A DNA stretch of 14,391 nt, from assembly GCA_919901855.1 (NCBI GenBank), contig CAKKQC010000069.1:1-14391 (forward strand). Reading direction: 5' to 3'. The notes below the pieces were generated by a model. The model saw only the letters and a list, made by a program, of their open reading frames with translations, was not told the origin of the DNA and ran no database searches. Positions 386-12,909 of this stretch are shown in pieces (positions within the stretch are counted from its first letter, which is position 1; each line of letters opens with the position of its first letter). The stretch comes from a bacterium. GTDB lineage: Bacteria; Oederibacteriota; CAKKQC01. A program made the position numbers and the translations under genes.

Positions 386-937
386 TTAGGACCAGGAGGA
401 GAGGAAGCGGGAGAGGATGGTGGAGTCGGCGAGAAGGTCGGAAAGGGAGCGGACGGAGGCTTCGAGCGCCGGGCGGTCGATCGTGGCACGGTGGCGTCCG
501 ATGAGGAAGCGCACGTCTTCCTCGTCGCGCGGCCGGCCGGAGATCACCTTGTGGAGGATGAGATCGGCCACGCCGCAGACCTTGACCGGGTAGCCCGCGA
601 CATCCATCGTGGCCGCCCGCTTGATGGCCTCCTCCTCGAAGGGGAGCTGGCCGAACACGATGTCGACCGGCAGGCCGTTCGCGGTCGTGGCGGGCAGGAC
701 CCGGGTTTCCCCGGCGAATCCGACCGGATCGGGGGTGCGAGCCTTGAGGTGCCGGAGGAGCCGCGGGACCCAGGCATCCGGCGTGCTGTCCCCAATCCAG
801 ACCGTCACATCCGCATCCATCGTGGTCCGCGTGCTGCCCCAGAGGATGGCGGCCGCCCCCCCAATGAGCATGTACGGGAGTCGTTCCTGGTCGAGCGCTT
901 CGGCGACCGCGCGGAGGCCTTCCTCCAGCCTCGTCAC
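386..937 (-). CDS. Nucleotidyltransferase, MNT/AbiEii-like
   Basis: A protein of 183 residues with the hallmarks of the DNA polymerase beta-like nucleotidyltransferase superfamily. It has a Gly-Gly turn at 26-27 (LIGGAAAILWG), the metal-binding Asp pair in TTMDADVTV at 41-43, and a third acidic position in PVDIVFG near residue 92. A late motif (SGRPRDEEDV, 133-142) resembles the AbiEii/DUF6036-type toxins. Such proteins transfer nucleotides to RNA or protein and usually act in toxin-antitoxin or abortive-infection modules; the substrate cannot be read here. I chose the GTG at 937 because the upstream gene stops at 940-942, leaving two bases between them. A much longer open frame runs upstream to 1369, but it overlaps that gene and is not family-like. 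The two genes look co-transcribed. The family assignment is firm; the toxin role is inferred from context. Confidence 0.85.
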   Translation of the reverse strand: MTRLEEGLRAVAEALDQERLPYMLIGGAAAILWGSTRTTMDADVTVWIGDSTPDAWVPRLLRHLKARTPDPVGFAGETRVLPATTANGLPVDIVFGQLPFEEEAIKRAATMDVAGYPVKVCGVADLILHKVISGRPRDEEDVRFLIGRHRATIDRPALEASVRSLSDLLADSTILSRFLSSWS

Positions 938-939
938 GG

Positions 940-1173
940 TCAGCGGGGGAGGAGGGCGAGGCGTTCGTGCATGAGGCGGACGCCCGCGTAGTCCTCGGGG
1001 ACCGGGGCGGGAGGCGGACCGAAGCGGCGTTCGTGCCATTCGAGCATCTCGCCGGCCCACTGGAGCGCTTCCTGGGGACTGACGCGGTTCGCCGGGTCGT
1101 CGTCGCGGTGCCAGCGTTCGAACGCCTTCCATTGGGCGAGCCGGGTCTGCCATGCCTCCGCGACGTTCATCAT
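940..1173 (-). CDS. Small protein upstream of the nucleotidyltransferase, possible antitoxin
   Basis: This encodes 77 residues, rich in Trp, Glu and Arg, predicted by eye to be mostly helical (LAQWKAFERWHRDDD, then ALQWAGEMLEWHERRF), with a Pro-rich turn near 52-60. I do not recognise the family. It ends two bases before the nucleotidyltransferase start, so the pair is almost certainly translated from one message. An acidic small protein in front of a nucleotidyltransferase is the usual antitoxin-first layout, but that function is inference. Two ATG codons are adjacent, at 1173 and 1170. A -10-like TACAAT ends at 1178, so the second ATG is at the spacing expected for a leaderless start. There is no Shine-Dalgarno sequence. 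Confidence 0.65.
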   Translation of the reverse strand: MMNVAEAWQTRLAQWKAFERWHRDDDPANRVSPQEALQWAGEMLEWHERRFGPPPAPVPEDYAGVRLMHERLALLPR

Positions 1174-1629: not shown

Positions 1630-1690
1630 TCAGAGTTGGGAGAGGCGTTCGGAGAGGCGGGCGAGGCGGGCTTCGAAGTCGGCGATGGCG
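1630..1690 (-). pseudogene. valS 3'-end fragment, copy 1 (61 bp)
   Basis: This matches the true valS end at 4736-4796 base for base with only two differences (at the Leu codon before SQL's end and in the Glu codon of the FEARL block) and no gaps. It includes the TGA stop at 1632-1630. It has the same orientation as valS and encodes only the last 19 or so residues plus the stop, without a start. Similarity ends abruptly at 1690, ten bases before the hicB -10 element. On the other side it abuts the repeat ending at 1628. It is a non-coding remnant and one of three direct copies. Confidence 0.9.
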
Positions 1691-1699
1691 AGTGAGGCG

Positions 1700-1708
1700 T
1701 GATAACAT
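1700..1708 (+). promoter_or_regulatory. Extended -10 element of hicBA
   Basis: TGATAACAT fits an extended -10 (TG, one base, then TAACAT). It starts nine bases after the valS fragment ends and lies 34 bases before the hicB GTG start. No good -35 is visible, which is acceptable for an extended -10 promoter. Autoregulation by HicB is usual in the family but not shown here. Confidence 0.4.
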
Positions 1709-1742
1709 CGAATGAGATGGGGATGGAGATCGGAGGCCGGAC

Positions 1743-2084
1743 GTGAGCAGGCAAGCCGCAACGATGCATGCGAAGGCGGGAAGGGCGGCTCCCGCCAACC
1801 TGCCTGTCGAGATCTTCCAGGAGGGCAAGGTGTACGTCGCCCACTGTCCCGCCCTGCGGCTGGCTTCCCATGGTCCTACCCGGGAAGCGGCACAAGCAGC
1901 GCTGAAGGTGACCGTCGGGATCTTCTTCGAGGAGATCGAGCGGAAGGGCACCCTCGAGGCTGTCCTTGTGGAATGCGGCTGGCGCGTGGATCGGGCATCG
2001 GGCAAGGAGCCACCACGGCTCGTGCCTCCCCGGATCACGACCAGCCACTTGGCCGTTCCCGCCTCGATCCATCTCCCGGCCTGA
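1743..2084 (+). CDS. hicB: HicB-like antitoxin
   Basis: This is a 113-residue protein with the HicB partial RNase H-like fold pattern: a beta-strand start (VEIFQEGKVYVAHCPAL, 22-38), then the conserved HGPTREAAQAAL block (43-54) and an FFEEIERKGTL helix (61-71). The family neutralises the HicA mRNA interferase. It has no obvious C-terminal ribbon-helix-helix or HTH domain; the tail ends in VPASIHLPA, as in short HicB forms. The GTG start at 1743 is set by GGAGG at 1732-1736, six bases upstream; an ATG at 1764 is a possible alternative. The residues before about 20 are not family-like. A broken hicA follows after nine bases, so the antitoxin may now be an orphan or serve another toxin. Confidence 0.85.
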   Translation: MSRQAATMHAKAGRAAPANLPVEIFQEGKVYVAHCPALRLASHGPTREAAQAALKVTVGIFFEEIERKGTLEAVLVECGWRVDRASGKEPPRLVPPRITTSHLAVPASIHLPA

Positions 2085-2093
2085 GCAGGCCGG

Positions 2094-2210
2094 GTGGGCA
2101 GGCTCACCCCACTCGATCCGCAATCGTTCCGGCGCTTCCTGCGTGCCCACGGATGGGAGTTCTCCAGAATCGCGGGAGACCACGAAGTCTGGAACGCGGC
2201 GGGGAGCTAG
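2094..2210 (+). pseudogene. hicA: Truncated HicA toxin
   Basis: From the GTG at 2094 a frame of 38 codons reads VGRLTPLDPQSFRRFLRAHG and then WEFSRIAGDHEVWNAAGS before TAG. This is the first half of a HicA double-stranded RNA-binding-like domain: the helix before HGWEF, then the GDHEVW segment holding the catalytic His (residue 30, usually in a GSH motif). HicA proteins are normally about 60-80 residues, so the last strand and helix are missing. The frame is lost exactly where the second valS fragment begins. The stop TAG at 2208-2210 lies inside a CTAG shared with the valS-fragment stop on the other strand. The gene is nine bases behind hicB, in the antitoxin-first order known for some hic loci. 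It is most likely inactive. Confidence 0.75.
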
Positions 2211-2418
2211 AGCTGGGAGAGGCGTTCGGAGAGGCGGGCGAGGCGGGCTTCGAAGTCGGCAATCGCGGCACGGGATTCGGCCACGAGGGCGGGGGAGCCT
2301 TGGCGACGAAGTCGGCGTTGGCGAGAGTGGCTTTGCGCTTCCCGAGCAGGCCAGTAGGTGCGTCACGTTCCTTCTCGAGACGGGCCTTCTCGGCCGCGGG
2401 GTCGGCGGGCTTCGGGAG
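2207..2418 (-). pseudogene. valS 3'-end fragment, copy 2 (212 bp, frameshifted)
   Basis: This aligns end to end with the true valS end at 4736-4948, with about nine in ten bases the same by eye. It covers the C-terminal coiled-coil arm and the stop, which is TAG here rather than TGA. One base is missing from the G-run at 2291-2297 compared with 4820-4827, so the reading frame is broken, and there is no start. Similarity stops at 2418, sixteen bases from the AbiEii stop codon. At the other end it cuts into hicA. It is therefore a dead duplicate in the same orientation as valS, placed exactly between two toxin-antitoxin modules. Confidence 0.92.
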
Positions 2419-2434
2419 CGAGAGGTGAGGGCGC

Positions 2435-3808
2435 CTAGCGAGTCTCCACTACGTGGCCGCTGCGGCCGTAGCAGGGGTCGCCGGTCTGGTCCCTGTGCGG
2501 CTTCATGGCCGTATCCCCGGTCTTCCGCGTGAAATGGCGACCGCACGAGGAGCACTCGACAATGTAAACGGTGCCCGATGACCCGGTGTACCTGCGAGAG
2601 CCCGTCACGCGCCGGTGCGTGAGCGGCGCCGTCAGCGGTCCCGTCGCGGAGAACTCGACCGGGGCAACAGGTTCGAACGGTCGCGTCGTCACCTTCACAC
2701 TCTGGATCATGCCCACCGAGTAGCTGCGTAGAGCGCGGGGGGCGACCTTCATGGCATAGAAGAGGAGGTTCCCTGCCCGGTTCCTGCGCAGCGAGTACGG
2801 TTCCACCAAGCGTGTGCTGCCGTTGTACCCGAGTTCCACGCAGAGGTGGTTCGCGGCCGCGAAACGGATCTGCTCCAGCGGGATCCGGGCCCGCCAGACG
2901 GTGATCGAGGGCGGCGGCGACCATCCCACGTCGACGTTGGCGTCCGGCGAACCGGCGGATGGCCCTGCCGGTCTCGGGGCTTCGCCGAAGAGCCAACGGA
3001 ACAGCCCGCCCAGGTCCCGCCAGAACGGTTCAAAGGGAGGCAGGACGGGAAGCTGGTGCGCGAGCATGTTCGCCCACTCGGACTCCAATTCGGCGCGAAA
3101 GGGGGAGGCCTCCAGGATGCGAAGGGTGGGAACAGGCACACCCTTGGCATTGCACTTCAGGACGAGCGTTTCGCGCAGGGCTGCGGGATCCACTCCCAGA
3201 TCGGGACGCCGATAGAGATTCACGATGTCGTAGAGGTCACGGGGCCGGCTGCGTTCGCCCATCGCCCTGATCTTCTCGGCGAAGAGTTCGAGAAAGCTGT
3301 AGCAGAGAACGGAGAACGCGGGGGAGGGATTGTCCGGATATGGATGGAAGACCGGCCGCGTTTCCGGTGGGCGCGCGACGGCCTCATCGGCCGTGAGGTC
3401 GATCTTGATGCGGGCCACTTCGGGCGCCTGACGGGCTCCCCGGTAGTACACGCGGCCCTCGACGGATCGGCCGTGCTTTCGCCGTTCGAATACGGGCGGA
3501 CGAGCCTCGAAGTCAATGCCGGATTCCTCGGTGATCCGGGCGAGCATCGGTGAAAAGAGGTCGCTGAGCGCATCGGGTGCGAGCGGACCGTCGTCCCGTA
3601 TGGTGAAGTCAAGGTCTTCGGAGAACCGGTACGTCTCGAGATAGCACTTCTTGAGGCAAGTACCACCCTTGAATACCCACTTTTCGCTGAGTGGGGGCGT
3701 GGAGCCGATGCCGCGGAGAAGCCAGCCGAGCGCATGGTCCTTCTCGATGATGTCTTCCCGCAAGCCCCATTCCCGAACCCGCTCCTCGATGTCCGACCGG
3801 CTGATCAC
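2435..3808 (-). CDS. abiEii: AbiEii nucleotidyltransferase toxin with WYL-like and zinc-ribbon-like tail
   Basis: This protein has 457 residues from the GTG at 3808, which overlaps the AbiEi stop as GTGA. The AbiEii nucleotidyltransferase domain fills about 1-275: WVFKGGTCLKK (44-54), the metal-binding pair in RFSEDLDF (61-68), the third acidic residue in IKIDLTADE (135-142), and the late basic motif EKIRAMGERSRPRDLYDI (178-195). After a Pro/Gly linker (278-300) comes a WYL-like segment (about 318-378: ELGYNGSTRLVEPYSLRRN, IQSVKVTTRPFEP). A Cys-rich end follows (C419, C422, H438, C446), resembling a zinc ribbon. AbiEii toxins transfer nucleotides to tRNA or other targets and give phage resistance by abortive infection. 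All catalytic motifs are present, so it should be active. A longer in-frame extension to 4339 overlaps abiEi and is rejected. Confidence 0.93.
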   Translation of the reverse strand: MISRSDIEERVREWGLREDIIEKDHALGWLLRGIGSTPPLSEKWVFKGGTCLKKCYLETYRFSEDLDFTIRDDGPLAPDALSDLFSPMLARITEESGIDFEARPPVFERRKHGRSVEGRVYYRGARQAPEVARIKIDLTADEAVARPPETRPVFHPYPDNPSPAFSVLCYSFLELFAEKIRAMGERSRPRDLYDIVNLYRRPDLGVDPAALRETLVLKCNAKGVPVPTLRILEASPFRAELESEWANMLAHQLPVLPPFEPFWRDLGGLFRWLFGEAPRPAGPSAGSPDANVDVGWSPPPSITVWRARIPLEQIRFAAANHLCVELGYNGSTRLVEPYSLRRNRAGNLLFYAMKVAPRALRSYSVGMIQSVKVTTRPFEPVAPVEFSATGPLTAPLTHRRVTGSRRYTGSSGTVYIVECSSCGRHFTRKTGDTAMKPHRDQTGDPCYGRSGHVVETR

Positions 3809-4659
3809 GAGGGCTCGCCCTGGTCGGAGAAGACGACGTTGACCCTGAGGTTCCATCGTCTGACGATTCGGCCCCTGCCCTTGATCGTCGTATCCAGGAG
3901 GGAATATCCGGCACTCAGGCGCTGCCGGCACGCCTGAATCAGCTCGGGCGCGTTGATCGCCAGCCGCTCCACCAGATATCCGAGACGCTTGTAGGCCGTC
4001 CGATTGTCCAGCCGTTGGCAGTAGTCCAGCAGCAACGCGTAGTCCTTGTGCTGGCTCCTGCAGTACGCCAGCAGCACGTCGCTCGTGTGCCTGACTCCGC
4101 CCGCGAGTGCGGGATCGGCGACGATATCCGCGATCGTCCGGCTGGGATCGGACACGCGCACCCGGACCCGCCCCCGCCAGACCCAGCGGGTGCCGAAGAG
4201 CAGACGTTCGGGCCGGGTGGTCAACACGAAGCCGGTTCCCTGGATCACGGGGTGCCGGCTCCGGATATGGCGTGCGGTCATGACCACGATGTCCCGGAAT
4301 ACCTGTTCCGTGAGACCCCAGTGTTCGCACGCGCTCCATCCGCCGATGTAGCAGGGAGCAAAAAGATGGTGTGCCAGGACCCAGGGATCCACGTGCCAGT
4401 CGGCTGGCCGGTCGGCATCGAGGGGTGTCGGGGCATAGAGTCCGTGACTGACTCGGGTGAGCCAGCCCCGCGAGGCGAGGCCGGCGAGGAGCCGCCTGGT
4501 CTCCGCATGGCCCAGGCCCAGTATCCGGGCTCCGTCGGTTACGGTCAGCAGGCCCGGGGTCTTGGAGAGCTGCACCAGCTTCCTCCGAGTGGCCCCGGAG
4601 ATGCCCTCGCCCGAGGGGGAATGGGCGGTATATTGGGAGCGTTCTTTATCGATTCTCAT
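3805..4659 (-). CDS. abiEi: AbiEi antitoxin and repressor
   Basis: A protein of 284 residues. The N-terminal winged helix-turn-helix lies at about 25-78 (LLTVTDGARILGLG, then the TRRLLAGLASRGWLTRVSHG wing ending in LYAP). The AbiEi core follows, with YIGGWSACEHWGLTEQ (104-119) and the signature DPSRTIADIVADPALAGGVR (171-190). In studied AbiE systems this protein binds inverted repeats before its own gene, represses the operon, and counters AbiEii without tight complex formation (type IV). It starts 76 bases after the valS stop, with ATG at 4659 and no strong Shine-Dalgarno. It is translationally coupled to abiEii by a four-base overlap. The pair lies between the genuine valS end and the second valS fragment. 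Confidence 0.94.
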   Translation of the reverse strand: MRIDKERSQYTAHSPSGEGISGATRRKLVQLSKTPGLLTVTDGARILGLGHAETRRLLAGLASRGWLTRVSHGLYAPTPLDADRPADWHVDPWVLAHHLFAPCYIGGWSACEHWGLTEQVFRDIVVMTARHIRSRHPVIQGTGFVLTTRPERLLFGTRWVWRGRVRVRVSDPSRTIADIVADPALAGGVRHTSDVLLAYCRSQHKDYALLLDYCQRLDNRTAYKRLGYLVERLAINAPELIQACRQRLSAGYSLLDTTIKGRGRIVRRWNLRVNVVFSDQGEPS

Positions 4660-4677
4660 GGAACTATTCGCACTCGC

Positions 4678-4705
4678 AGTATATCACCTCGGCCAAAGCG
4701 TGAAA
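4678..4705 (-). promoter_or_regulatory. Possible abiE promoter
   Basis: On the minus strand TATACT (4683-4678, five of six to consensus) is preceded by a 16-base spacer and TTTCAC (4705-4700), a weak -35. It lies in the 76-base gap between the valS stop and the abiEi start and would give a leader of about ten bases. AbiEi operators are expected here, but I see no clear inverted repeat. Confidence 0.4.
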
Positions 4706-4735
4706 TCCTCAGGTGGAGCGGTGGGGTGGGTGGGC

Positions 4736-7399
4736 TCAGAGCTGGGAGAGGCGTTCGGAGAGGCGGGCGAGGCGGGCCTCGAAGTCGGCGATGGCGGCAC
4801 GCGATTCGGCCACGAGGGCGGGGGGGGCCTTGGCGACGAAGTCGGCGTTGGCCAGTGTGGACTTTCGCTTCTCGAGGAGGCCGGTGAGGGCGGCGCGCTC
4901 CTTCTCGAGACGGGCCTTTTCGGCCGCGGGGTCGGCGGGCTTCGGGAGGGCGAGGAAGAGGCTGTAGCCGGGGATGTGGATGGTCACATGGGGTGACGGA
5001 GGGGCGTCGCCGGCGGCCATCACACTGAGCTTCGCCTTGCACAGCGTCTCGACGTAGCCGAGCTTGAGGGGTTCCGCCAGCGCCGCGGGGTCGGCGGTGG
5101 CTTCGGCCCGGGCCGCGACGGTCACGGTCTCGGCCGGCTCGATCCCGGTCTCGTGCCGGAGCGTGCGGATGGCGGAGACGATCCCGAGCGTGACGGCCAT
5201 GGTCTTGCCGGCCTGGTCGGTCCCCGGGGCGGGTTTGGGCCAGGGCTCGAGCATGAGGAGCGGCCCATGGCCCGGGAGCTTGGGGAGCCTCTGCCAGAGC
5301 TCTTCGGTGATGTAGGGGACGACCGGGTGCATTAGCTTGAAGGTCCGGTCGAGGACGGCGCACAGGGTCCACGTTGCGGCGGGGCGCCGCACTTGGTCCT
5401 TGAGAGCAGGCTTCGCGAGCTCGAGGTAGGTGTCGCAGAGTTCGTGCCAGAAGAAGGTCTCGAGCAGGAGCGCGTACTCGCTGAACGAGTAGCGCTCGAG
5501 CGCCTGGGTCGCCTGCGCCACGACCTCGTCGGTCCTCGTCAGGATCCAGCGGTCGGCCAGGGAACGGTTGGCAGGCGGCTCCGCAGTCGGCGTATAGCCT
5601 TCAAGCTCGCCTAAAGCGAAACGGCCAGCGTTCCATATCTTGTTCATGAAGTTGCGGCCGTGCTCGACCTTCTCGGGCGACATCCGGAACGACTGCCGGA
5701 GGGTCTCCTGACCCGTGAGCGTGAACCGGGTGGCGTCGGTCCCGTATTGGGCGAAAAGATCGAGGGGGTCGACGACGTTCCCCTTGGTCTTGCTCATCTT
5801 CTTCCCCTCGGGGTCGGTCACCAGGGAGTTGAACACGACGGTGTGGAACGGGCGCTTTCCCGTGAACTTGAACCCGGCCATCATCATCCGCGCCACCCAG
5901 AGGAAGATGATGTCCGCGGCGGTCACGAGGACGGACGTGGGGTAGAACGTGGCGAACCCGAGCCGCTTCATCTCGGCCTCGTCCGGCCAGCCGAGCGTCG
6001 AGAACGGCCACAGGGCGGAGGAGAACCAGGTGTCGAGCGAGTCGGGGTCCTGGTCCACGGCCCCGCCGCACTTGGGGCACTTGGCCGGGGCGGAGCGGGC
6101 GACGATCGTCTCCTTGCACTCCCGGCAGTACCAGGCCGGGATGCGGTGGCCCCACCAGAGCTGGCGCGAGATGCACCAGTCCCGGATGTTCCGCATCCAC
6201 TCGAAGAAGACGGCGGGCGCATTGTCGGGGAGGAGCCGGACGGCGTCCGGGTCGTCGGGCCGGGTCTCGCCCAGCTCGACCGCCCGGATCGCGGGCTCCG
6301 CCAGCCCCTTCATCTTCATCCACCACTGGAGGGAGACGAGCGGCTCCAGCCGGGTGTTGCACCGCTGGCAGTGGGCGATCGGGGACCGGCGGGGTTCGAC
6401 CTTGACCAGGAGGCCCTTCGCCTCGAGGTCGGCGACCACGCGGTCGCGGGCCTTGAACCGGTCCAGCCCGGCGTACGGGCCCCCGTGCTCGTTCACGGAC
6501 GCGTCCGGATTGAAGATGTTGATGATCGGGAGCTTGTGGCGGGCCCCGATCTCGAAGTCGTTCTGGTCGTGGCCGGGCGTGATCTTGAGCGTGCCCGTCC
6601 CGAACTCGCGGTCGACGTAGGCGTCGGCGATGACCGGGATCTCGCGGTCGAGCAGGGGGAGGATCGCGGTCTTGCCCACGATCGCCTTATGGCGGTCGTC
6701 GTCCGGATGCACGGCCACGGCGACGTCGCCGAGCATGGTCTCGGGACGGGTGGTGGCGACCACGGCCTCGCCCCCGCCCTGGAGCGGGTACTTGATGTGC
6801 CAGAGCGACCCGTCGAGGTCCTGGTGCACGACCTCGAGGTCCGAGATTGCGGTCTGGCACCGCGGGCACCAGTTCACGATCCGCTCGCCGCGGTAGATAA
6901 GCCCCTCGTCGTACAGCCGGACGAAGTGCTCGATGACGGCCTGCGAGAGCCCCTCGTCCATCGTGAACCGCTCGCGGTCCCAGTCGCAGGAACAGCCCAT
7001 CAACTTCAACTGTTCGACGATCCGGTTGCCGTATTTCTGTTTCCAGGCCCACGCGCGCTCGAGGAAGGCGTCGCGGCCCAGGTCGCGCCGGGTCTTGCCC
7101 TCCTTCTTCAACTCCCGTTCGAGCATGACCGTGACCGCGATGGAGGCATGGTCGGTGCCCGGGATCCAGCAGGCGTTGTAGCCCTGCATGCGCTTCCACC
7201 GCGTCAGGATGTCCTGGAGCGTGTTGTTGAGCGCGTGGCCCATGTGGAGCGACCCCGTCACGTTCGGCGGCGGGATCACGATCACGAATGGGGGCTTGCC
7301 CGACGCCGGGTCGGCGTGGAAGGCCTTGGCGTCGAGCCAGCGCTGGTAGAGGGGGCCCTCGACGGCCTTGGGATCGTATCTTGGCGCGAGTTCGGCCAC
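4736..7399 (-). CDS. valS: Valyl-tRNA synthetase
   Basis: This 887-residue class I synthetase charges tRNA-Val. The HIGH signature is HMGH at 52-55 (VTGSLHMGHALNN). The CP1 editing domain shows TTRPETMLGD (216-225) and the segment from FGTGTLKI through GHDQNDFEIG (266-285). A zinc-binding pair appears as CREC and CPKC (425-428, 441-444). The second signature is KMSKTKGN (534-541), with Thr in the last KMSKS position, a tolerated variant. The tail from about 825 is the Leu/Glu/Arg-rich coiled-coil arm typical of ValRS (LEKERAALTGLLEKRKSTL onward). The start is a GTG at 7399, two bases after the stop of the upstream membrane protein, with AAGGAAAGG as a plausible ribosome site. It is the last gene of a three-gene operon. 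Its final 213 bases are the source or homologue of the two fragments at 2207 and 1630. Confidence 0.98.
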   Translation of the reverse strand: MAELAPRYDPKAVEGPLYQRWLDAKAFHADPASGKPPFVIVIPPPNVTGSLHMGHALNNTLQDILTRWKRMQGYNACWIPGTDHASIAVTVMLERELKKEGKTRRDLGRDAFLERAWAWKQKYGNRIVEQLKLMGCSCDWDRERFTMDEGLSQAVIEHFVRLYDEGLIYRGERIVNWCPRCQTAISDLEVVHQDLDGSLWHIKYPLQGGGEAVVATTRPETMLGDVAVAVHPDDDRHKAIVGKTAILPLLDREIPVIADAYVDREFGTGTLKITPGHDQNDFEIGARHKLPIINIFNPDASVNEHGGPYAGLDRFKARDRVVADLEAKGLLVKVEPRRSPIAHCQRCNTRLEPLVSLQWWMKMKGLAEPAIRAVELGETRPDDPDAVRLLPDNAPAVFFEWMRNIRDWCISRQLWWGHRIPAWYCRECKETIVARSAPAKCPKCGGAVDQDPDSLDTWFSSALWPFSTLGWPDEAEMKRLGFATFYPTSVLVTAADIIFLWVARMMMAGFKFTGKRPFHTVVFNSLVTDPEGKKMSKTKGNVVDPLDLFAQYGTDATRFTLTGQETLRQSFRMSPEKVEHGRNFMNKIWNAGRFALGELEGYTPTAEPPANRSLADRWILTRTDEVVAQATQALERYSFSEYALLLETFFWHELCDTYLELAKPALKDQVRRPAATWTLCAVLDRTFKLMHPVVPYITEELWQRLPKLPGHGPLLMLEPWPKPAPGTDQAGKTMAVTLGIVSAIRTLRHETGIEPAETVTVAARAEATADPAALAEPLKLGYVETLCKAKLSVMAAGDAPPSPHVTIHIPGYSLFLALPKPADPAAEKARLEKERAALTGLLEKRKSTLANADFVAKAPPALVAESRAAIADFEARLARLSERLSQL

Positions 7400-7401
7400 G
7401 G

Positions 7402-9411
7402 CTACCGGCCTTTCCTTGCGAGGGCGAGGTGGTCGAGGACTTCCTTGCGGGCGGCGAGGACCCGGGCGTCACCGGTGGCCGGGAGCCGCTTGAGGGCGGT
7501 CTCGAGCGGCGTGATGGCCTCCCGGAACCGGCCCGCCCTGATGTACACGTAGCCCAGGGTGTCGAGATACGTGGGGTCCCCGGGGACCTGCTTCACCGCG
7601 AGCTTGGCCAGCTCCACCGCCTCGTCCAGGCGCGTCGAGCACTCGGCGAGGTAGTAGGCGAGGTTGTTCGTGATGTCCTCGCGCAGGGGGTGCAGGGCGT
7701 GCGCGGTATCCAGGGCCGGGATCGCGCGGCGCAGGGCGGTCTTGCGCTCGAAGATCATGGAGAGCTGCTTGTAGACGTTTTCGTCGTGGTACCCGAGGGC
7801 AAGAGCCTTCTGGACGTAGTGCATGGACTCGTCCACGGTCCGCCCGGTCCAGTCGAACCGGCCCGAGTTGAACGCGGCGACCGAGAAGCGGAAGGCGAGG
7901 AACCGGTTCCGCGGCGAGTGCTCGAGGCCCCAGCCGTAGTAGGCGTAGGCCATCTCGTAGTTGTTGTAGCCGACCTGGCGGTCGCCCTCGAGGAGCATGC
8001 GGTCGGCGTAGAGGACGTTCCAGATGGGGCGCATGGAGAGCAGCCCGGCCGCCGCGACAAGGCCCCAGGCCATGATCCGACGTCTCAAGGGTACGTCTCC
8101 TTCGACTCCGACCGCTTCGCGGTCTCCGCTCAGGACGGGCCTTCGGCCCGCCGCAGCGAGCATGCCGATCGAGGCGAAGAGCACCCAGCTCGGAGGGACG
8201 ACGCGGAGCGGGAAGTTCATCAATCCATCCGCGGCCACGGTGGCGATGACGCCCACCGCCGCGAGCCCGTACCAGTCGCCCGACCGGTGGACGGCCGCGG
8301 CCCAGCGCAGGGCGCAGACGAGGAACCAGATCCAGAGGCCCAGCCCGACGATGCCGAGCTCGGCCAGGATCTGGAGGTGGTCGTCGTGCGCGTACATCTC
8401 CTGGCTCGCGAAGAAGTGGCCGGGCGAGCCGATCGCGGCCCGCGTCTTCAGCCGGCGCAGGGGGTACTCGGCGCAGTAGCCGCCGAGCCCGGTGCCGAAT
8501 AGCGGGTGGTCCCGGGCGATCCGGGCGCAGACCTCGGCGTTCAGGAGCCGGAACCGGGCGGAGTAGCCCTGCGGGTTCACGGCGTCGGTGAGACGCTCGA
8601 GGACGGGGACGGGCGGCCGGCCGCCCACGGAAGCCGAGCTCACGAGGGTGAACCCGATGAGCCCGGCGACCGCGGCGGAGAGGAGCCAGGTCCGGTTCGC
8701 GGCGAACAGGGCGCGGCCGCGCGCGTCGGCGGCGAGCAGCCCGATCTGGACCGCCGTGCCGACCCCGAGGCCGAACCAGGAGCTGCGCGTCCAGCTCAGG
8801 AAGATCCCGAGCGCGAGCACGGCGAGCAGGAGCGTGAGGAGGTCCTTGGTCTCCTCCCGCTCGGTCACGAGCCAGCGCGCGAAGACGAGCGGGAAGACGG
8901 CGGCGAGGTAGTTGCCGAAGAAGACGGGGTTGCCGAGGGTGGAGAACACCCGCGGGCGGAAGTGCGACGCCCACTCCACGGGGTCAAAGCCAAGATACTG
9001 GGCGATGCCGTACAGCCCCGCGATGGACGCGGCGATCATGATCGCGTCGAGGAGCGGCTCGCGCGAGGCGAGGGAGCCGGAGAGCGCCATGACGGTCAGC
9101 ATCGCGCCGAGGAAGAGGGCGGCGGCGAGACCCTCGCCCGCCGCGGGGGTGCCGGCCAGCGAGAACACGGCCACGGCGGCGACCGCGGCGGCGGGGAGCG
9201 CGACGGGCGTGGCGGGGGCCAGGGGCGCGCGGAACGCGAGGACGCGGGCGAGCCCGGCGCCGACCAGGAGGGCGGCGGCCAGCGCCAGCACGACGCTCTT
9301 GGGCAGGCCCGAGGCGTCCTGGATCAGGCCGGGCGCGATCGCGAGCGGCAGGAGATAGGCGCAGACGATCAGCACGCCCTGCACGAACCGGGTCAGCGGC
9401 AGCCGCGGCAC
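7402..9411 (-). CDS. O-antigen ligase/polymerase-like membrane protein with C-terminal TPRs
   Basis: This is a 669-residue protein. About the first 455 residues hold some ten or more hydrophobic segments and the WzyC/O-antigen ligase pattern: STLGNPVFFGNYLA (157-170), SWTRSSWFGL (206-215) with the conserved Arg, and a large loop ending in MYAHDDHLQILAELGIVGLG (339-358), whose His and Glu match the family's active-site region. Such inner-membrane enzymes join or polymerise undecaprenyl-linked glycans on the periplasmic side. From about 470 it continues as TPR-like helices (VGYNNYEMAYAYYGWGLEHS, YLDTLGYVYIRAGRFREAI), a common tail in this family. It starts with GTG, seven bases after the protease stop, and is coupled to valS downstream. 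Whether it ligates O-antigen, polymerises another glycan or modifies pilin cannot be decided from sequence. Confidence 0.88.
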   Translation of the reverse strand: MPRLPLTRFVQGVLIVCAYLLPLAIAPGLIQDASGLPKSVVLALAAALLVGAGLARVLAFRAPLAPATPVALPAAAVAAVAVFSLAGTPAAGEGLAAALFLGAMLTVMALSGSLASREPLLDAIMIAASIAGLYGIAQYLGFDPVEWASHFRPRVFSTLGNPVFFGNYLAAVFPLVFARWLVTEREETKDLLTLLLAVLALGIFLSWTRSSWFGLGVGTAVQIGLLAADARGRALFAANRTWLLSAAVAGLIGFTLVSSASVGGRPPVPVLERLTDAVNPQGYSARFRLLNAEVCARIARDHPLFGTGLGGYCAEYPLRRLKTRAAIGSPGHFFASQEMYAHDDHLQILAELGIVGLGLWIWFLVCALRWAAAVHRSGDWYGLAAVGVIATVAADGLMNFPLRVVPPSWVLFASIGMLAAAGRRPVLSGDREAVGVEGDVPLRRRIMAWGLVAAAGLLSMRPIWNVLYADRMLLEGDRQVGYNNYEMAYAYYGWGLEHSPRNRFLAFRFSVAAFNSGRFDWTGRTVDESMHYVQKALALGYHDENVYKQLSMIFERKTALRRAIPALDTAHALHPLREDITNNLAYYLAECSTRLDEAVELAKLAVKQVPGDPTYLDTLGYVYIRAGRFREAITPLETALKRLPATGDARVLAARKEVLDHLALARKGR

Positions 9412-12576: not shown

Positions 12577-12909
12577 ACCCGTCCCGCAGTGACGGGTCCT
12601 GCCAGTGGCCGAGTGGAGGTCTCTTCGGCACGCTCGGTAGAGGCGGCGCGGGTCCTGTCGGGGGCCTCGTCACCGTTCGCTCACCATTGCGGCTGAGGCC
12701 CAAGCATCCTGCTTCACCTACCACTGCTGGTGAGCGACTGCCTGCACAGGAATGCGAGCAGTCGCAGCCGGACCTGCTGGTCGCCTCACCACCGACGCCG
12801 CCGGTTGGTTCGCGAAGCTGACTTCGGCCCCCTCCTCCCGCGCCGCCGGAGTTGGCAGGCCAGCGCCTCAGAGACCTCCACTCGGCCACTGCCACCCGTC
12901 TCTGACGGG
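12577..12909. repeat. Inverted-end structured repeat, copy C (most complete)
   Basis: About 333 bases with inverted ends. Bases 12603-12623 and 12871-12891 are perfect reverse complements, and the arms extend with small differences to 12591 and 12900. Each outer end carries a hairpin of CCCGTC/GACGGG (12578-12596 and 12895-12909). Bases 12591-12661 are identical to 1238-1308, and the core (about 12662-12806) matches 87-232. The core has the two-hairpin module at 12720-12731 and 12734-12765. The size, inverted ends and lack of an open frame fit a MITE-like or other non-autonomous element. It occupies the whole gap between the secreted TPR protein and the beta-helix gene. The right-hand hairpin begins one base after the TPR gene's stop and might end its transcript, although no T-run follows. 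Confidence 0.82.

Follow-up and report, generated by a model that had tools for sequence, protein, structure and literature searches.

Repeated Gene 3' Ends Bordering Toxin-Antitoxin Modules in an Oederibacteriota Genome Suggest Entry beside an Imported Gene End

Introduction

Several prophages and genomic islands are integrated at the 3' ends of protein-coding genes, e.g., e14 and phage 21 in icd and the staphylococcal cassette chromosome (SCC) in rlmH, with entry depending on a dedicated recombinase at a fixed site. In Neisseria, minimal mobile elements lack mobility genes; they are cassettes that homologous recombination swaps between conserved genes. How small, integrase-free toxin-antitoxin (TA) units move between chromosomes is an open question. 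Here, we analyze a complete contig of 14,391 bases (the window; CAKKQC010000069.1 in GenBank assembly GCA_919901855.1) from a bacterium of the Oederibacteriota, in which the 3' end of valS, the valyl-tRNA synthetase gene, is present three times and borders TA genes.

Restriction-modification genes that insert with long target duplication (Nobusato 2000; Furuta 2010) lack a recombinase of their own, and their duplications are described as long and variable, of the order of 100 bp (PMC3874152 and PMC1643837; see also PMC3031569). Homology-facilitated illegitimate recombination (HFIR), as well as circularization followed by a single crossover, has been described in Streptococcus pneumoniae, Acinetobacter baylyi, Pseudomonas stutzeri, and Escherichia coli (PMC3240628). 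Finally, type VI secretion system (T6SS) effector-immunity modules in Vibrio cholerae and Rhs orphan arrays show sequential displacement, for which HFIR was proposed by the authors (PMC5361080). The outer anatomy of the valS locus is thus known from restriction-modification genes and its array logic from T6SS modules; what differs is the cargo, the use of an unrelated gene as the anchor, and the evidence for an imported gene end. The most probable explanation is that TA units entered beside a foreign gene end by homologous recombination, with a nonhomologous second joint and displacement of the native end, and that two such entries, one after the other, left the three valS ends as scars.

Materials and methods

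The window belongs to a 4.68-Mb genome in 91 contigs (93% complete), which was compared with 45 genomes of the phylum, one of them (G001) in the same family. Direct repeats were scanned in ∼1.8 Mb of the window's own genome, ignoring cargo. Genes outside the window were called by open reading frame (ORF) and GC-frame reading, with Pfam checks for selected proteins. The 117 valS loci examined include that of the window, and 93 of them have >2.5 kb of downstream sequence.

Results

BLAST of the valS end against the whole genome gave exactly three matches, all in the window and in the same orientation: positions 4736 to 4960 (the gene itself), 2209 to 2425 (89% identity; E = 4e-78), and 1630 to 1690 (97% identity; E = 2e-22), designated copies A, B, and C, respectively (Table 1). 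Alignment of the three segments agreed with BLAST that the repeats are real, as in the initial annotation, which had described a threefold valS end on one strand with the stop codons included. Copy B aligned with copy A at 89.5% identity over 218 columns, lacks one net base, and reads as a frameshifted tail, while copy C aligned with copy A over 61 bases with two differences and no gap. Similarity stopped at the stop codon in all three copies (TGA in A, TAG in B, and TGA in C), and most substitutions between A and B were at third codon positions. Neither B, which is frameshifted, nor C, with 58 coding bases, can serve as a working gene end, and a chance origin of the repeats is excluded.

An AbiE pair lies between copies A and B, as previously read from the sequence: genes for an AbiEi regulator and an AbiEii nucleotidyltransferase, both recognized in Pfam and PADLOC comparisons, are adjacent and overlap by 4 nucleotides (nt), and abiEii ends 9 bases from copy B. 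The hicBA module that had been placed between copies B and C was borne out in part. A hicA remnant and a HicB-like ORF are present there, but the toxin gene is truncated at the stop codon of copy B, the two stop codons overlapping within one CTAG, and its 38 residues (profile positions 5 to 25 of 58) do not make a full-length HicA toxin. The neighboring ORF had no Pfam or PADLOC match and is presumably HicB-like, given its position next to hicA and its likeness to HicB.

In the part of the genome that was sampled, six further genes, unrelated to one another, showed the same anatomy, as did one locus in another family of the phylum (Table 1); the pattern is thus not peculiar to valS. The inserts at these genes carry AAA/DUF4143, AbiE, MNT-HEPN, or VapBC genes, and in five cases the module makes up 89 to 96% of the insert. 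Repeat lengths range from 42 to 673 nt across the pairs (61 and ∼217 nt at valS), and similarity mostly stops at the stop codon. As a whole contig of a metagenome-derived draft assembly, the window could in principle carry an assembly artifact; however, the copies are only 81 to 99% identical, and the anatomy recurs on seven contigs and in another assembly, so that an artifact has almost no credibility as an explanation.

Association of the repeats with modules was assessed in both directions. Every recognized locus with a repeated gene 3' end, i.e., seven in the 1.8 Mb scanned and also L292, encloses TA or AAA/DUF4143 genes. Conversely, flanking repeats of at least 50 bp accompany 9 of the 63 modules of four families in the same genome, versus none of 200 random windows and none of 28 valS controls (Fisher P = 2e-6). 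Both results argue against ordinary duplication of gene ends in this genome with TA genes arriving independently later. Such duplication does draw some support from duplicated gene starts with other cargo, as in the mirror case of a GH51 gene, whose first 160 nt, from the ATG exactly, have an upstream duplicate, with GH95-type and other genes enclosed (C7:36724-36883 and 40994-41153), but as an account of the 3'-end loci it is very improbable.

Several candidates were set aside. A 52-bp repeat on C74 and a 53-bp repeat on C71 are interspersed elements rather than gene ends, and no tie to a gene end could be made for a HepT-associated repeat on C8 or for a repeat on C73. The repeat at C7:18515 derives from part of an antitoxin-like gene rather than from a host gene. 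In a family-based scan of modules in the other genomes of the phylum, flanking repeats were mostly AT-rich and noncoding, with a gene end at L292 only. Comparison of the other valS loci for cargo bounded by valS ends, which the initial annotation had suggested, gave no comparable tail repeat among the 117 loci. At L066, from a Thermoanaerobaculia genome, the last 34 nt of valS, including the stop codon, recur 41 nt downstream (near 12637-12744); this repeat was too short to count as comparable.

Table 1. Gene ends, modules, and related loci (C, contigs of the window's own genome; entries without a contig or locus prefix are window positions)
Feature	Position	Strand	Remarks
valS, intact valyl-tRNA synthetase gene	4736..7399	-	887-aa ORF; PF00133, PF08264, PF10458 (Val_tRNA-synt_C to residue 887); current 3' end is copy A
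Copy A, working valS end	4736..4955	-	Alignment with B and C; presumed to have come in with the AbiE unit
Copy B, displaced valS end	2207..2425	-	∼217 nt; TAG stop; frameshifted; 89% to A; 9 nt from abiEii
Copy C, displaced valS end	1630..1690	-	58 nt plus TGA stop; 97% to A; borders the sequence further downstream
abiEi, antitoxin gene	3805..4659	-	PADLOC AbiEi, E = 3e-81; Pfam AbiEi_4 and AbiEi_1 just below cutoffs
abiEii, nucleotidyltransferase toxin gene	2435..3808	-	PF08843, E = 8e-45; PADLOC AbiEii, E = 2e-132, residues 1-393 of 457
hicA remnant	2094..2210	+	38 aa; PF07927 positions 5-25 of 58, E = 0.005
HicB-like antitoxin ORF	1743..2084	+	113 aa; ORF; position beside hicA
fhs / DUF4143 insert	C10:212151-212226 and 213452-213527		Repeats 98.7% identical
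Zinc-ribbon gene / DUF4143 insert	C6:291014-291084 and 292428-292498		
URO-D gene / DUF4143 insert	C60:15103-15199 and 16570-16666		
Porin-like gene / AbiE plus large gene	C2, L276:9622-9762 and 5117-5257		
APH-like gene / MNT-HEPN	C9:1462-1508 and 2482-2528		
246-aa gene / VapBC plus glycosidase	C43:10859-11531 and 7746-8418		VapB and VapC read by eye; PIN toxin supported by search
L292, genome G032 (another family of the phylum) / DUF4143			255 nt, 98%

Several lines of evidence indicate how the two ends of a pair are related. First, 91 of 120 substitutions across nine pairs of ends are at third codon positions (P = 2e-21 against an expectation of 1/3 and P = 6e-9 against 1/2, the latter close to the proportion that could result if a single copy decayed). 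The long C43 pair supplies 50 of these substitutions, and the bias persists when it is left out (54/70; P = 8e-14); its displaced end has kept 223 codons in frame at 7% divergence. Second, the predicted C termini differ in kind in the zinc-ribbon and URO-D pairs (VRFEDSAPLIA versus VRFSDGGTEGGPQPV; LRWGST versus LRWGR), and the stop codons differ in the valS and porin pairs. Third, an identical core is flanked by divergence on both sides in the zinc-ribbon (41 nt) and URO-D (48 nt) pairs, as expected around a crossover. Because of the third-position bias and the different C termini and stop codons, the paired ends read as two lineages' coding versions of one gene end rather than as a target duplicated at insertion. 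Together with the identical cores, this indicates a homologous junction at which the donor and recipient versions meet.

This bears directly on long target duplication, in which a transposon-like entry would copy the end from the target itself. The outer anatomy is the same as that reported for restriction-modification genes with variable duplications of the order of 100 bp (PMC3874152 and PMC1643837): a small, selfish, TA-like unit without its own recombinase, bordered by long direct repeats of the target, whose lengths at the loci described here are likewise long and variable. Duplicates made at insertion would start identical, however, with later decay of the displaced copy spread over all three codon positions, in contrast to the substitution pattern and to C termini that differ in kind. 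Long target duplication is therefore unlikely at the loci described here. These loci also differ from the restriction-modification insertions in their TA and AAA/DUF4143 cargo, their location mostly at gene 3' ends, and an end that seems imported rather than duplicated.

Where a judgment can be made, the displaced end looks native, although this is suggestive only: at fhs, an intrinsic-terminator-like sequence lies behind the stop codon of the displaced end, and the displaced zinc-ribbon end adjoins the neighboring gene (GTPase-like, ychF by sequence).

Site-specific integration was proposed in the initial annotation, by analogy with elements that rebuild the 3' end of a tRNA or tmRNA gene. 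In its general form, a tyrosine or serine integrase, since lost or acting in trans, would place modules at the 3' ends of genes, with the element restoring the gene end in the manner of e14 and phage 21 in icd. Much of the anatomy agrees with that of e14, phage 21, and SCC, in that the gene end is rebuilt by incoming sequence, the old end forms the far border, accretion is in tandem, and similarity begins inside the gene and stops at the stop codon. An integrase-like ORF of 415 aa also exists elsewhere in the genome, on C60, within an element that is associated with tRNA-Ser and has perfect 41-bp repeats. However, an integrase would have to act at seven or more unrelated target genes and leave repeats of widely differing length, and most inserts are too small for a recombinase gene and are nearly filled by module genes. 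No integrase gene was recognized when the ORFs of five inserts (valS, fhs, zinc-ribbon, URO-D, and APH) were read, although action in trans is possible, and comparison of the insert ends of eight events by eye, without a formal motif search, revealed no common sequence. Integrase-mediated insertion is accordingly improbable. The wider part of the earlier proposal, that units entered at the valS 3' end, that incoming sequence rebuilt the end, and that the old end was pushed downstream, is supported.

Other features were observed in the window and the genome. The AbiEii protein has a C-terminal extension beyond the PADLOC model (window positions 2435 to 2630) with a Cys-containing, zinc-ribbon-like stretch, CSSCGRH. 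Window positions 389 to 1170 hold a DUF6036/DUF2204-type nucleotidyltransferase ORF and a small companion ORF, possibly a further MNT-type TA pair. A miniature inverted-repeat transposable element (MITE)-like interspersed element of ∼310 bp with ∼34-bp terminal inverted repeats lies at 12591 to 12900, with partial copies at 76 to 222 and 1238 to 1311 that flank this nucleotidyltransferase region; it has 29 partial or full matches in the genome. The TA and DUF4143 load of the genome is heavy (∼18 DUF4143 ATPases, 11 AbiEii matches, and 31 PIN matches), and one entire contig (L264; C70:1-13506) is taken up by AbiE pairs and AAA/DUF4143 genes in an array, mostly on one strand. Past the displaced fhs end, downstream of C10:213527, a DUF488-like ORF and then a type I restriction-modification HsdM-like gene, both read by eye, form a small defense cluster. 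The tRNA-Ser-associated element on C60 (L268:1082-9215) has a perfect 41-bp repeat of a tRNA-Ser-like 5' part ∼8 kb apart, with the integrase-like ORF at one end, and looks like an ordinary tRNA-targeted integrative element.

Discussion

Entry beside an imported gene end would proceed as follows. Incoming DNA would consist of a valS end from a related lineage with a module directly behind it. A crossover within the shared gene end would place the foreign end and the module behind the resident gene body, and a nonhomologous joint would connect the far side of the module to a point inside the resident gene end. The native end, truncated at its 5' side, would thereby be displaced to the far side of the module, giving a whole chimeric gene, the module, and a truncated native end, in that order. 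Similarity would stop at the stop codon because donor and recipient are unrelated beyond the gene, and the event would be tolerated because the valS coding sequence stays whole; 3' ends may prevail for the same reason, as the anchor gene is left intact. At valS, HicBA would have entered first and AbiE later. Entry of the units one after another, as initially suggested, is the natural reading of three nested ends, and it is in this sense that the order is proposed.

Two routes could lead to this outcome, neither of which needs an integrase: circularization of the gene end and module by ligation, followed by a RecA-dependent single crossover, or HFIR of linear DNA. Both share with the laboratory systems one homologous anchor and one nonhomologous joint, which yield a chimeric gene and a displaced partial repeat (PMC3240628). 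In contrast to those systems, known from laboratory transformation and conjugation, the process would here have left natural scars, repeatedly with TA modules. A ComEC homologue is encoded in the genome, but such homologues are common and its presence proves nothing regarding DNA uptake. As in T6SS arrays, successive modules at a conserved anchor would push older 3' ends downstream to form arrays (PMC5361080); there, the toxin gene itself is replaced, whereas here an unrelated housekeeping gene is a mere anchor and stays functional. Unlike the minimal mobile elements of Neisseria, which recombine through homology on either side without leaving a repeated gene end, the loci described here retain the second end.

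Several observations weigh against entry beside an imported end or restrict its reach. Most modules of the four families have no flanking repeat, and other routes must therefore exist, and in three of the nine repeat-flanked modules the repeat is not clearly coding. Duplicated gene starts (the GH51 case and a PIN locus on C22) and a duplicated operon junction (a PIN locus on C62) indicate that the bias toward 3' ends is not absolute. When the differing valS sites were polarized against the single same-family genome, G001, they were divided equally between the ends (8 sites to 8). That genome also provides no empty site: its valS is directly followed, without a repeat, by a TA-like pair of a MazE-like antitoxin and a Fic/Doc toxin (L088:1162-1789), and its valS downstream site thus also holds TA-type genes. 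Finally, the repeat scan covered a sampled 1.8 Mb of the 4.68-Mb genome.

Inserts consisting almost entirely of module fit a unit made up of the module and a single gene end, which might be able to leave and reenter by the same route. We tentatively suggest, as a less likely extension of the mechanism above, that such a unit could be a self-perpetuating, integrase-free mobile element with the gene end serving as its address label. If the two ends were recombined by the host, a circle of the module and one end would be freed and an intact gene left behind, and the circle would reenter the same gene in a relative by a single crossover, rebuilding the two-ended state. If so, the TA cargo would punish loss.

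The scars described here have a signature that is searchable in any genome, i.e., a partial end of the neighboring gene on the far side of a module, differing from the intact end at third codon positions. Such gene-end scars allow import by homologous recombination to be told apart from target duplication of the transposon type, and the third-position test is also applicable to published restriction-modification insertions. For the Oederibacteriota genome, they point to homologous recombination at the ends of unrelated genes as a probable route by which small TA units without an integrase move between chromosomes.

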